From the NCBI GenBank assembly GCA_947631405.1, contig CANRLC010000008.1:1-64000 (forward strand): 64,000 bases of DNA, written 5' to 3'. Below, one piece after another: positions 4,391 to 59,572 of the stretch (positions within the stretch are counted from its first letter, which is position 1; each line of letters begins with the position of its first letter). Below the pieces are notes generated by a model. It saw only the letters and a program-made list of their open reading frames with translations. It searched no databases and had not been told where the DNA came from. The DNA comes from an uncultured Clostridia bacterium (GTDB taxonomy: Bacteria; Bacillota; Clostridia; Christensenellales; Aristaeellaceae). The translations under genes were made by a program, and so were the position numbers.

Positions 4391-4430
4391 CGCGCGAAAA
4401 AAGAAAAGCGCGCGACAGGGTACGCGCTTT
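4391..4430. terminator. Bidirectional terminator between rmuC and spoIIE
   Basis: A perfect 8-bp stem, AAAGCGCG (4405-4412) and CGCGCTTT (4423-4430), is flanked by T-runs in both directions: TCTTTTTT on the minus strand and CATACTTTTTT on the plus strand. It would stop minus-strand transcription from rmuC. It directly abuts the end of the repeat element at 4432. Confidence 0.7.
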
Positions 4431-4431
4431 C

Positions 4432-4792
4432 ATACTTTTTTAGACTAAATTCTTTAATGTGCTGCAAAGCACAGGATGGGGTCTGGCGCTGGAGCCGAGC
4501 GCGGCCAGTGGCCGAAACAGCGAGGCGGAAGCGGGGAATCGCAAGGAACGAGCGCAGCTCGCGACTATGCGAGTTCCCCGGGCGAGCGCTACAAAGACTT
4601 ATATCGCTACCACCCCGACAGTGTCTGCTCCCCGCGGTAGCCCCAACGTCACCTCAATCGCGAAGCGATTTCCAAATGTAGCCCGGAAGCGAAGCGATCC
4701 CGGGCGGGTTTATCATGAAAAGTTGCATTATCCTGCCTTTGCTTGTCCGGCATAACCCAATGACAGAATGATAGCTGATTTGAAAATAGTAT
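4432..4792 (-). repeat. MITE-like intergenic repeat, copy D (long variant, reverse orientation)
   Basis: Read on the minus strand, this 361-bp copy matches the elements at 7045-7289, 30846-31090 and 57444-57671 over its left part (GATACTATTTTCAAATCA end, GCCCGGGATCGCTTCGCTTC hairpin, ACGTTGGGGCTACCG) and at its right end (CCAGACCCCATCCTGTGCTT). The third and fourth hairpins of the other copies are replaced by about 150 bp of unrelated, hairpin-rich sequence (roughly 4488-4630). One end overlaps the stop codon of rmuC at 4792-4794. The other end abuts a terminator stem. Confidence 0.8.
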
Positions 4793-6270
4793 CAGTCCCA
4801 ATCGTCATCTTCGTCCTCGTCGTAACGGGGTTCGCCGGGATCGTCGCCGCCGAGCAGCTCGCGCGCCTCGCGCTCGGGCATCTCGCCCACGTCGGACAGG
4901 CGGCGGGCGATATTCTCGCTGTGGCGCTGCGCGCTCTCGATGCTCTCGGTCGCCTGCTTGAGGCGCTTCTGCGTGCGGCTGAGCAGGCCTGCGAAGCCGG
5001 TAAAGTCCGTGCGCACCGCGGAGAGCAGAGAGGCGATCTCCTGCGTGCGCTGCTCGATGGCCAGCGAGCGGAAGCCCATCTGCAGGCTGCGCAGCAGCGC
5101 GGCCAGCGTCGTCGGCCCGGCGATGACCATGCGGCTCTCCTTCTGGATGCGCTCGGCCAGATCGCCGATGCGCAGCACCTCCGAAAACAGCCCCTCGCTC
5201 TGCAAAAACAGCACCGCGTAATCCGTCGTGTACGGCGGCGCGATCAGCTTTTCCGACACGCGGCGCGCGTGCATGCGCACGGCGGACTCGAGCAGGCTGC
5301 GCGCATCGTCCTCCTGCTCGCGCGTGCCGTGCTCCAGCGCCTCGCGCAATTCGACATATTCCCGCATCGGCAGGCTCGCGTCGATCGGCAGCAGCACCGT
5401 GTGCCCCGCCTGACCCGGCATCACCACCGCGTAATCCGCCACGGGTTCGCCGCCGGGGCGCACGCTCGCATGCTGCGCGTACTGCTCCGGCGCGAGCATC
5501 TGCGCGAGCAGCGCGCCCAGCTGCACCTCGCCCCACGCGCCCAGCGGCTGCGCGCCGCCCAGCGTGTGGCGAAGCTCGTCCACGCTCCCGGCGAGCGACT
5601 GCATCGCCGACAGGCTGCTCTGCACCTGCTCAAGCCTGCGCGTCACCGCCTCAAAGGAAGCCTCCAGACGGCGATCCACCGTCGCGTTCAGCTTTTCATC
5701 GACCGTCAGGCGCATCTGCTCCAGCTGGTCGCGGTTGTCCTCGCCGATGCGGCGCAGGCCGTCCTCCAGCGTCTCGCGCATGCGCTCCATGCGCTCCTCG
5801 CTGCCGCCCAGCCGCTCGTCGATGACGCGGCCCACGCCGCCCAATCGCTCCTCATACGAGGAGAGGCGGTTTTCGACCGTCTCGCGCATGCGCTCCATGC
5901 GCTCCTCCTCTTGGCGGCCCGCGGCGCGCATCTGCCCGCCCAGCGCGTCCATCTGCCCCTGCTGCGTGCGCGTCAGTTCGCCCAGCATGCGCAGCATCGC
6001 ATCGTTGACGCCCTGCACGGCCTCGCCCAGCTCCTGCCGGGCCTCGCGCCGCTCCTGCTCGGTGCGCGTATCGGCGGCGGAGAGTCGCTCGCTCACCTGC
6101 CCGGACAGCTCGGCCATCCGCTTTTCCGCCTGCCGCGTGCGCCGCTGCAGCACCAGCAGGCAGGCAAGCAGCAGCACCACGAGCAGCAGGCACAGCGCCA
6201 CCACAAGCAAAAGCAGCTGCTCGGCGTCAAGGCCCGCCAGCAGCGCCTGCGCGCGACGTACACCTTCCAT
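4792..6270 (-). CDS. rmuC: DNA recombination protein RmuC
   Basis: This 492-residue protein has an N-terminal membrane anchor (about residues 18-42), a long charged coiled coil (about 45-225) and the conserved RmuC nuclease-like domain (about 230-430). The signature 'GAWGEVQLGALL' is followed by 'ADYAVVMPG' and 'LLPIDASLPMREY'. RmuC limits inversions and rearrangements at inverted repeats and is predicted to have a restriction-endonuclease-like fold. In this copy the usual 'KFP' is replaced by 'DASLP', a modest divergence. The stop codon is overlapped by one end of a repeat element. Length is typical of the family. Confidence 0.88.
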   Translation of the reverse strand: MEGVRRAQALLAGLDAEQLLLLVVALCLLLVVLLLACLLVLQRRTRQAEKRMAELSGQVSERLSAADTRTEQERREARQELGEAVQGVNDAMLRMLGELTRTQQGQMDALGGQMRAAGRQEEERMERMRETVENRLSSYEERLGGVGRVIDERLGGSEERMERMRETLEDGLRRIGEDNRDQLEQMRLTVDEKLNATVDRRLEASFEAVTRRLEQVQSSLSAMQSLAGSVDELRHTLGGAQPLGAWGEVQLGALLAQMLAPEQYAQHASVRPGGEPVADYAVVMPGQAGHTVLLPIDASLPMREYVELREALEHGTREQEDDARSLLESAVRMHARRVSEKLIAPPYTTDYAVLFLQSEGLFSEVLRIGDLAERIQKESRMVIAGPTTLAALLRSLQMGFRSLAIEQRTQEIASLLSAVRTDFTGFAGLLSRTQKRLKQATESIESAQRHSENIARRLSDVGEMPEREARELLGGDDPGEPRYDEDEDDDWD

Positions 6271-7020: not shown

Positions 7021-7044
7021 CGCGGGAATGAGGGAATCGCTTTC

Positions 7045-7289
7045 ATACTATTCTCAAATCAAATGATCGAACCATTTTGTCATGGGTTATACTGAGCAAG
7101 CAAAGGCGGGAGTACGCAGCTTTTCATGAACAACCCGCCCGGGATCGCTTCGCTTCCGGGCTACCTTTTGCAATCGCTTCGCGATTGAGGGTACGTTGGG
7201 GCTACCGCCCCAAACCCTGTCTGGGGACATTGTCCCCAGACCCCATCCTGTACTTTTCACCATATGAAAGTTTTATCTGAGAAAAGTAT
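7045..7289 (+). repeat. MITE-like intergenic repeat, copy A
   Basis: This 245-bp copy starts with ATACTATTCTCAAAT and ends with ATCTGAGAAAAGTAT, which are imperfect inverted repeats of each other. Inside are four consecutive hairpins: GCCCGG/CCGGGC, AATCGC/GCGATT, TTGGGGC/GCCCCAA and GTCTGGGGAC/GTCCCCAGAC. It is close to identical to copy B (30846-31090) over the inner 130 bp and has the same length. It lies between convergent genes and carries no coding sequence. Confidence 0.85.
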
Positions 7290-7296
7290 CGCGCGC

Positions 7297-30845: not shown

Positions 30846-31090
30846 ATACTGTTTTCAAATCAAATGATCTACACACTCCGACATCGGATTACGCCGAGCA
30901 AGCAAAAGCGGGAGCCGAGACTTTTCAAGTTCAACCCGCCCGGGATCGCTTCGCTACCGGGCTACTTTTGGCAATCGCTTCGCGATTTGGGGCACGTTGG
31001 GGCTACCGCCCCAAACCCTGTCTGGGGACATTGTCCCCAGACCCCATCCTGTGTTTTACACCATTTTAAGGTTTTATCTGAGAAAAGTAT
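30846..31090 (+). repeat. MITE-like intergenic repeat, copy B
   Basis: This copy is 245 bp, exactly the length of copy A. It runs from ATACTGTTTTCAAAT to ATCTGAGAAAAGTAT. The four internal hairpins are all conserved, and the block from CCCGCCCGGG through CCCCATCCTGT is almost unchanged. It lies between the convergent GH95 and GH115 genes and ends 11 bp before the GH115 stop codon. Confidence 0.85.
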
Positions 31091-57443: not shown

Positions 57444-57671
57444 ATACTATAAAAATGATCTAAATATTCTGCATTGGATTATGTCGAACAAGCAAAAATG
57501 GGAGTACGCCACTTTTCATGAACCACCCGCCCGGGATCGCTTCGCTTCCGGGCTACTTATCTGTGGGCGCTACGCGCCGGGGTACGTTGGGGCTACCGCC
57601 CCAAACCCTGTCTGGGGACATTGTCCCCAGACCCCATCCTGTGCTCCGCACCATATGAAGGTTTTATCCAA
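57444..57671 (+). repeat. MITE-like intergenic repeat, copy C (partly degenerate)
   Basis: This 228-bp copy shares the left end (ATACTAT), the GCCCGG/CCGGGC, TTGGGGC/GCCCCAA and GTCTGGGGAC/GTCCCCAGAC hairpins and the CCCCATCCTGTGC block with copies A and B. The second hairpin is changed to GGCGC/GCGCC (GGGCGCTACGCGCCGG). The right terminal repeat is degenerate. It lies between the convergent GH127 and uvrC genes. Confidence 0.8.
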
Positions 57672-57679
57672 GGGAGGTT

Positions 57680-59572
57680 TTATTCCTCCGTCCTCGTCCC
57701 CTCGTCCGGATGGAACCGCCGGTAGATCGCGTCGGCCTGCACGGGGCCGATTTTTTCCGCCTCGCACAGCGCCTCGCGGGAAGCGCCGGCGATCGCCGAG
57801 ATGGAGCCGAAGTGCGTCAGCAGCGCGCGGCGGCGGGCCGGGCCGACGCCGGGGATGTCCTCCAGCTTCGAGCGCATGCCCGCCTTCTGGCGCAGCGCGC
57901 GGTGGTGCGTGATGCCGAAGCGGTGCGCCTCGTCGCGCACGCGCTGGATGAGGTGCAGTGCCGGGGACTTGCGGTCGAGCAGGATGCTCTCCTCCCGCCC
58001 GGGCAGGAAGATCTCCTCCAGCCGCTTGGCCAAGCCGAAGATCGGGATGTCGTAGCCGCAGGAGAGCATCGCCTCGCGCGCAAAGCGCAGCTGCTGCGGG
58101 CCGCCGTCGATCAAAATCAGGTCGGGCAGGTCGGCAAAGCCCGTCAGGCCGCGGCCGTCCTCCGGCAGCTTGCCCTCGGCGGCGAGCGCCTTGCGCTCTT
58201 GGCTCGCGCGCGTCAGGCGGCGGGTGAGCACCTCGTTCATCGAGGCGAAGTCGTTCGCGCCGACGACGGTCTTGATGCGGAAGTGGCGGTATTCCTTCCG
58301 AGCGGATTCGCCGTCGATGAAGACGACCATGCTCGCCACGGAGAGCGCGCCCTGCGTGTTGGAGATGTCGTAGCCCTCGATGCGCCGGGGGACGCCCTCC
58401 ATGCCGACCGCGCGGGCGAGCGCCTCGCATGCGCCGACGGTGCGCTCCCGCTGGCGCGAGAGGTTCGCGTTGCGCTTGGAGAGCGCGTCGCGCGCGTTGC
58501 GCAGCGCCAGCTCGACCAGCTTGTGCTTCGTCCCCCGCTGCGGCTCGCGCAGCGAGACCTTGCCGCCCTCGCGGCGGCGGGTCAGCACGTCCTCCACGTC
58601 CTGCGCCTGCTCGGGCAGCTCCATGCAGAGCACCTCCGAGGGCGGGCGGCGTCCGTCGTCGTAAAACTGCAAGAGGAATTGCGAGAGGATCTTCGCGACG
58701 CTCTGGTCGCCCGCACCCTCCAGCGCGTAGCTCTCCGCGCCGATCATCCGCCCGCCGCGCACGAACACGACCTCGACCATCGCGTCGATGTCGTCGCGCG
58801 CGCAGGCGAGGATGTCCTGATCGCCGCCGCGCACGTCGATGGCCTTCTGCCGCTCCATGAGGTTTTGCACGTCGCGGATGCGGTCGCGAATCTGCGCCGC
58901 CTGCTCGTAGCGCATTTCCCGCGCCGCCTGCTCCATCTGCGCCTGCAGGCGAGCGAGCACGGCGTCGCTCTTGCCGCCTAAAAAGTCGATCACCTCGCGC
59001 ACGACCTTGGCGTATTCCTCCGGCGTGGTCTTCCCCGCGCAGGGGGCCAGACACTCGCCGAGCTGGTGGTGCAGGCAGGGCCGCCGGGGCGCGTCCTTGC
59101 GGATGGGCGCGGCGCAGGTGCGCAGCGGGAACAGCGCGCGCAGCACGGAGAGCACCTCGCGCACGCCCGTCGCGCCCATGTACGGGCCGAAGTATTTCGC
59201 CTTGTCCTTCGCCACGCGCCGCACCAGTTCCACGCGCGGATACGGCTGCGTCACGTCGATGCGCAGATACGGGTAGTGCTTGTCGTCCTTGAGCAGGATA
59301 TTGTACTGCGGGCGGTGCAGCTTGATGAGATTGCACTCGAGGATGAGCGCCTCCAGATTGCTGTCGCACAGCACGATGTCGAAGTCGTCGATGCGCTCCA
59401 CCATCGCGCGCACCTTGACCGTGTGATCGCGCGCGTTTTGGAAATACTGGCGCACGCGGTTTTTGAGGTTGACCGCCTTGCCCACATAGATGATCTGCCC
59501 CTCGCTCTTCATCAGGTAGCACCCGGGGCTATCGGGCAGCTTGGCGAGCTTTACGCGCAGCAGCTCGTTCAC
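57680..59572 (-). CDS. uvrC: Excinuclease ABC subunit C
   Basis: This 630-residue protein has the GIY-YIG nuclease domain at the N-terminus ('LPDSPGCYLMKSEGQIIYVGKA' in overall form). A central UvrB-binding UVR motif and the C-terminal endonuclease V-like half ('LILIDGGPQQLRFA', 'LDDIPGVGP'-type helix-hairpin-helix as 'LEDIPGVGPARRRALL') follow. UvrC makes both incisions in nucleotide-excision repair. The start codon is GTG at 59572, with GGGAGG 7 bp upstream. Length is normal. One end lies next to repeat copy C. Confidence 0.96.
   Translation of the reverse strand: MNELLRVKLAKLPDSPGCYLMKSEGQIIYVGKAVNLKNRVRQYFQNARDHTVKVRAMVERIDDFDIVLCDSNLEALILECNLIKLHRPQYNILLKDDKHYPYLRIDVTQPYPRVELVRRVAKDKAKYFGPYMGATGVREVLSVLRALFPLRTCAAPIRKDAPRRPCLHHQLGECLAPCAGKTTPEEYAKVVREVIDFLGGKSDAVLARLQAQMEQAAREMRYEQAAQIRDRIRDVQNLMERQKAIDVRGGDQDILACARDDIDAMVEVVFVRGGRMIGAESYALEGAGDQSVAKILSQFLLQFYDDGRRPPSEVLCMELPEQAQDVEDVLTRRREGGKVSLREPQRGTKHKLVELALRNARDALSKRNANLSRQRERTVGACEALARAVGMEGVPRRIEGYDISNTQGALSVASMVVFIDGESARKEYRHFRIKTVVGANDFASMNEVLTRRLTRASQERKALAAEGKLPEDGRGLTGFADLPDLILIDGGPQQLRFAREAMLSCGYDIPIFGLAKRLEEIFLPGREESILLDRKSPALHLIQRVRDEAHRFGITHHRALRQKAGMRSKLEDIPGVGPARRRALLTHFGSISAIAGASREALCEAEKIGPVQADAIYRRFHPDEGTRTEE

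Follow-up and report, generated by a model that had tools for sequence, protein, structure and literature searches.

The window, by which we mean the whole 64-kb stretch of DNA analysed here, contains four related copies of a small repeat, and all four were confirmed as real, as the sequence-only reading had claimed. Their intergenic siting was also borne out: three copies are flanked by convergent genes and the remaining one by tandem genes. The copies at 7046-7288 and 30847-31089 are indeed of equal length, although the exact ends make each of them 243 bp and not 245 bp, since the terminal repeat starts at TACT and not at ATACT as first proposed (ATACT...AGTAT). The features are as follows.

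7046..7288, forward strand: focal MITE, 243 bp, TACT...AGTA
7043..7045, strand not assigned: left target triplet TCA
7289-7291: right target triplet TCG at the focal MITE, imperfect relative to the left TCA
7046..7063, forward strand: left terminal repeat TACTATTCTCAAATCAAA of the focal MITE, 0 mismatches to the repeat pattern
7271..7288, reverse strand: right terminal repeat TACTTTTCTCAGATAAAA (read inward) of the focal MITE, 0 mismatches
7137..7161, forward strand: hairpin 1, GCCCGG...CCGGGC (GTCAGG...CCTGAC in relatives), with covariation
7171..7187, forward strand: hairpin 2, CAATCGC TTC GCGATTG (GGGCGC...GCGCC in other copies), with covariation
7196..7213, forward strand: hairpin 3, TTGGGGC TACC GCCCCAA
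7219..7241, forward strand: hairpin 4, GTCTGGGGAC ATT GTCCCCAGAC, with covariation
4433..4791, reverse strand: MITE copy, 359 bp, with a 93-nt module; its left end adjoins the rmuC stop codon
4489..4581, reverse strand: 93-nt structured module inside the hairpin array
4792..4794, reverse strand: rmuC stop codon TGA, which is also a target triplet; the other triplet copy is at 4430-4432
30847..31089, forward strand: MITE copy, 243 bp, TCA at both flanks
57445..57679, forward strand: MITE copy with decayed ends, TTA at both flanks
57680-57682: right TTA of the 57445..57679 copy, the reverse complement of the uvrC stop codon TAA

The repeat is not confined to the window. In the 2.28-Mb MAG the terminal repeat TACTWTTCTCARATMAAA was found at 141 sites with up to three mismatches, compared to 4 sites for the reversed control pattern, and this MAG therefore carries roughly 70 elements; a repeat search returned at least 40 matches, with every scored candidate place matching. 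From 1.28 Mb of the MAG we extracted 31 paired elements, which fall into three length classes: elements of 183-190 bp have a short left arm, those of 217-244 bp are of the focal type, and those of 281-363 bp have a further structured module, about 93 nt long, within the hairpin array. At 183-363 bp, non-coding and bounded by paired terminal inverted repeats, they have the build of MITEs. None of the 31 lies within a called gene, 21 being found between convergent and 9 between tandem genes.

The 93-nt module (CCGGGGAACTCGCATAGTCG...GGCTCCAG) occurs at varied positions and in both orientations in the hairpin arrays (window 4489-4581, L137, L168, L174, L194 and others), with 54 matches in the sequence searched, 21 of them in this MAG, and looks like a repeat within the repeat. 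Six contigs of this MAG (L116, L128, L134, L137, L142 and L144) start inside the module at the same site, with the junction GTTACAATATATTTGCC... or ...CTATTGACTTTTTATTTGCAGG, as might be produced by a multi-copy insertion element that targets it. An IS110 element was considered as the agent breaking the module, and no IS110-type transposase match was obtained in this MAG.

With the ends placed at TACT and AGTA, the outer triplet has the form TNA at either flank. The central flank base agrees in 22 of the 31 paired elements of this MAG (10.1 expected), and all three flank bases agree in 16 of 31, where 2000 shuffles gave a mean of 7 and a maximum of 14. Species-representative genomes were scanned for TNATACTWTTCTCARATMAAA, giving at least 80 loci; among the matches listed, these are mostly from gut and rumen Clostridia, the hits elsewhere being single and probably due to chance, and many loci have a partner repeat 120-300 bp away, enclosing quite different interiors. 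Identical TNA flanks were observed for 47 of 54 pairs from other Clostridia among the matches listed (TAA 16, TCA 13, TTA 12, TGA 6). The duplication is thus one of 3 bp, and the TA target duplication proposed from the window is rejected because it leaves the agreement of the central base unexplained. In the relative G045 the terminal repeat is found at 88 sites when up to two mismatches are allowed, and the 195-bp copies of G045 that were examined all have matching triplets, which points to probable recent movement. A TNA-type duplication of 3 bp, as in these MITEs, is a feature of PIF/Harbinger Tourist MITEs and of IS5/IS1031-type elements, whose transposase family and ends are unrelated to those described here.

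Two observations were made on contigs from sheep rumen Clostridia. L217, L228, L256 and L265 carry the same terminal repeats and TNA flanks around a wholly different palindromic interior (GTCATCCCGA...TCGGGATGAC) of about 220-231 bp, and L217 (2362-2826) holds a tandem pair of elements with one common TTA, as would result from the insertion of one element into its neighbour's duplicated triplet.

Comparison of occupied and empty sites was possible at two loci. The order at the rmuC locus of this MAG is TGA, element, TGA, terminator. A separate element, in the opposite orientation, sits at the same rmuC stop codon in the relative G047, and the element is absent from that site in the other rmuC orthologues read to their 3' end, most of the closer of which have a terminator-like stem within about 20-90 nt past the stop. 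In this comparison the frame shown for G024 is not rmuC, and the sequence downstream is longer or different in G001, G003, G008, G010, G013 and G019 and in a more distant group. The empty orthologous sites are consistent with the corrected TACT...AGTA ends. The second locus is the stop of a G045 gene, whose orthologues in G018 and in this MAG are without the element; the flanks there have diverged (67-73% identity), and the comparison is supporting rather than base-exact.

Autonomous relatives with the same ends were found in other genomes only. In L248, from a rumen Clostridiales MAG, the left repeat lies upstream of two overlapping IS630-family transposase frames, and a right end of the same kind is present on another contig of that genome, L373. 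Among homologues within the genus, L362 is intact (1109 bp, both repeats, flanks TAA/TAA), L361 has 1275 bp and unequal flanking triplets (TAA/TTA), and L375 is internally deleted (TGA/TGA). Both overlapping transposase frames share TCAAAAAAATTAA, a likely frameshift site. The NF033545 (IS630) profile matched the relatives' transposases with 145 and 134.8 bits (cut-off 100), DDE_3 is present, and by its sequence the enzyme is an ordinary member of the family. The flanks do not show the TA target and duplication of IS630 elements, being TAA/TAA in L362 and TGA/TGA in L375, and also TCA and TGA in the MITEs; IS630 membership of the autonomous relatives rests on the transposase, and the TNA duplication is a variant. 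A profile search of this MAG gave no NF033545 match above the cut-off, its two weak matches being an IS481-like gene and a sigma-factor-like gene as judged by eye from the translations, and the copies of this MAG are therefore orphans. Two other transposase types were rejected on account of their different ends, namely the sole DDE_Tnp_1 transposase of this MAG, which is IS1182-like, and IS5-type copies (PF13586), which occur in G045 only.

From the shared ends and duplication we infer that an IS630 transposase moved the copies of this MAG. The repeat is very probably a MITE with 18-bp terminal inverted repeats, mobilised in trans by an IS630-family transposase and generating a 3-bp TNA duplication. 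A non-autonomous transposon mobilised in trans had been one suggestion made from the window, and it is now strongly supported by the terminal repeats, the duplications, the empty sites and the IS630-family relatives.

The elements are sited at stop codons with unusual precision. When genes were predicted by codon usage, 25 of the 43 right ends in this MAG coincided exactly with an in-frame stop, that of the gene running into the element, and this stop is the duplicated triplet itself, so that the "close to a stop codon" of the sequence-only reading becomes exact coincidence. Of 54 left ends, 2-3 fall on a stop. Away from elements, 12.4% of the TNA sites in intergenic DNA are stop codons, and the excess at right ends is about 4.7-fold (p about 1e-12 in a test that takes sites as independent). 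In seven related genomes, whose arrays have mostly decayed ends, the right side faces a gene 3' end in 75 of 98 arrays (within 60 nt of it in 50 of the 75), with little bias on the left side (52 to 46). In G045, right ends point toward a gene's 3' end in 19 of 21 cases; the orientation bias is genus-wide.

One possible explanation, to which we give an even chance, is selection and not targeting: insertions would occur at any TNA, and those at a stop with the right end toward the gene would persist because they do no harm or provide a good 3' end. Near-identical copies of G045 indeed show little stop preference (4 of 24 oriented superfamily copies exactly at a stop, all G045, among the matches listed), and MITEs with other interiors are at stops in 4 of 30 cases among the matches listed, roughly the fraction that intergenic TNA sites would lead one to expect. 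Nevertheless, the excess is also seen for well-preserved copies (11 of the 14 mismatch-free right ends of this MAG are at stops), and landing a few bases beyond a stop should be equally harmless, yet exact stops predominate. Alternatively, insertion would be genuinely steered onto stop codons, in a single orientation, by the transposase or a partner, which we consider possible at somewhat below even chances. The contrast between right and left ends, set against the genomic background, and the two independent insertions at the rmuC stop argue for such targeting, whereas the opposite orientations of these two insertions, the near-background siting in G045 and the lack of a sequence signal past TNA in the few targets tabulated argue against it. 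Selection may account for part of the stop-codon siting. A further reading, which we consider less likely than not, is that an IS630 subgroup both duplicates 3 bp of the form TNA and steers its MITEs onto stops in a single orientation, the element restoring the stop and becoming a mobile structured 3' untranslated region.

The interior of the element is strongly structured. Besides the four stem-loops recognized from the window, a fifth hairpin, GTGCTTCGCAC, is present in most copies and has decayed in the focal one; the three copies (A, B and C) in which the GTCTGGGGAC/GTCCCCAGAC stem had been called invariant all keep it intact. The fold of the repeat is far stronger than that of shuffled sequences (z -5.9, 0/200). 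Across 52 aligned arrays, helices 1, 2 and 4 pair in 98.1% of cells, and 8 pairs have changed on both sides, giving 56 such cells as against 12.1 for shuffles and 1-6 for slid structures, counts that are inflated by shared ancestry and to which template switching, which can also correct palindromes, may contribute. Hairpin 3 is too variable in length for this alignment and has many different complementary stems. The covariation shows conserved pairing, not necessarily an RNA function. A stem followed directly by a T run was found in 12 of 31 elements in sense and 4 of 31 in antisense, and most elements are therefore not simple terminators. The earlier suggestion of structured transcript ends is plausible as far as the covarying stems and the right ends at gene 3' ends are concerned, and is weakened by the majority of copies without the stem and T run. 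In Rfam 15, no match in the window reached the gathering score, with only weak sub-threshold hits at the 4433-4791 copy.

The covarying stems and the placement of arrays after genes would also suit host structured RNA elements (3' ends or attenuators) that are not mobile. As a full account this is very unlikely, being contradicted by the terminal repeats, target duplications and orthologous empty sites, by the near-identical dispersed copies in G045 and by the unrelated interiors between the same ends; co-option of inserted copies is possible. REP/BIME elements moved by a Y1 (RAYT) transposase, likewise GC-rich palindromes at high copy number in intergenic space, are an extremely improbable identity given the clear terminal repeats and target duplications and the absence of Y1_Tnp (PF01797) from this MAG. 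Viral contigs gave 10 single hits to the terminal repeat and no match to the hairpin pair, phage records gave no match to the array, and plasmid records matched only over 42 bases of IS630 genes from Deinococcus, which have different ends.

Among systems already described, the RUP repeat of Streptococcus pneumoniae, for which IS630-Spn1 is the supposed mobiliser in trans, is likewise small, tightly folded and non-coding, with terminal inverted repeats and a hypothesised IS630-family mobilisation, and is the nearest analogue in its working; it differs in its ends and interior and is AT-rich, and neither a TNA duplication nor exact stop-codon siting is reported there (PMC3049150). SPRITE of the same species is MITE-like, enriched near gene 3' ends and suggested to be co-opted at transcript ends, but resembles a Rho-independent terminator, has ends of only AAAA/TTTT and is without a known duplication or transposase (PMC3049150). 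The likely mobiliser resembles the IS630 family (NF033545; ISY100 being a studied member, PMC2170065, PMC6400869) in combining HTH with DDE_3 and in its two overlapping frames, and differs in the 3-bp TNA duplication in place of TA, the target used by the IS630/Tc1/mariner elements studied so far according to PMC6400869 and PMC5481204. A search of the open-access literature, itself weak evidence of absence, returned nothing for either IS630 or MITEs on TNA or on siting at stop codons, and the TNA duplication and stop-codon siting appear to be new for IS630.

Taken as a whole, the elements form a superfamily of MITEs in gut Clostridia, with autonomous relatives of the IS630 family and a striking stop-codon placement. 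In the mechanism that we propose, the IS630-family transposase of a full-size relative would move the MITE in trans via the common ends, and insertion at a TNA site would duplicate 3 bp. Because TAA and TGA both fit TNA, insertion at such a stop codon would duplicate it and leave the protein intact, placing the element right at the beginning of the gene's 3' untranslated region and upstream of the native terminator. The hairpins would then work at the RNA level, their most likely role being that of a structured 3' end through which the insertion is tolerated or of use. Restoration of the target stop codon on insertion may be a low-cost route by which a transposon reaches high copy number in a compact genome. 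A TNA duplication of 3 bp would extend the target rules so far recognised for the IS630/Tc1/mariner group, and the abundance of copies at the ends of genes provides natural material for testing the effect of structured 3' ends on transcripts.
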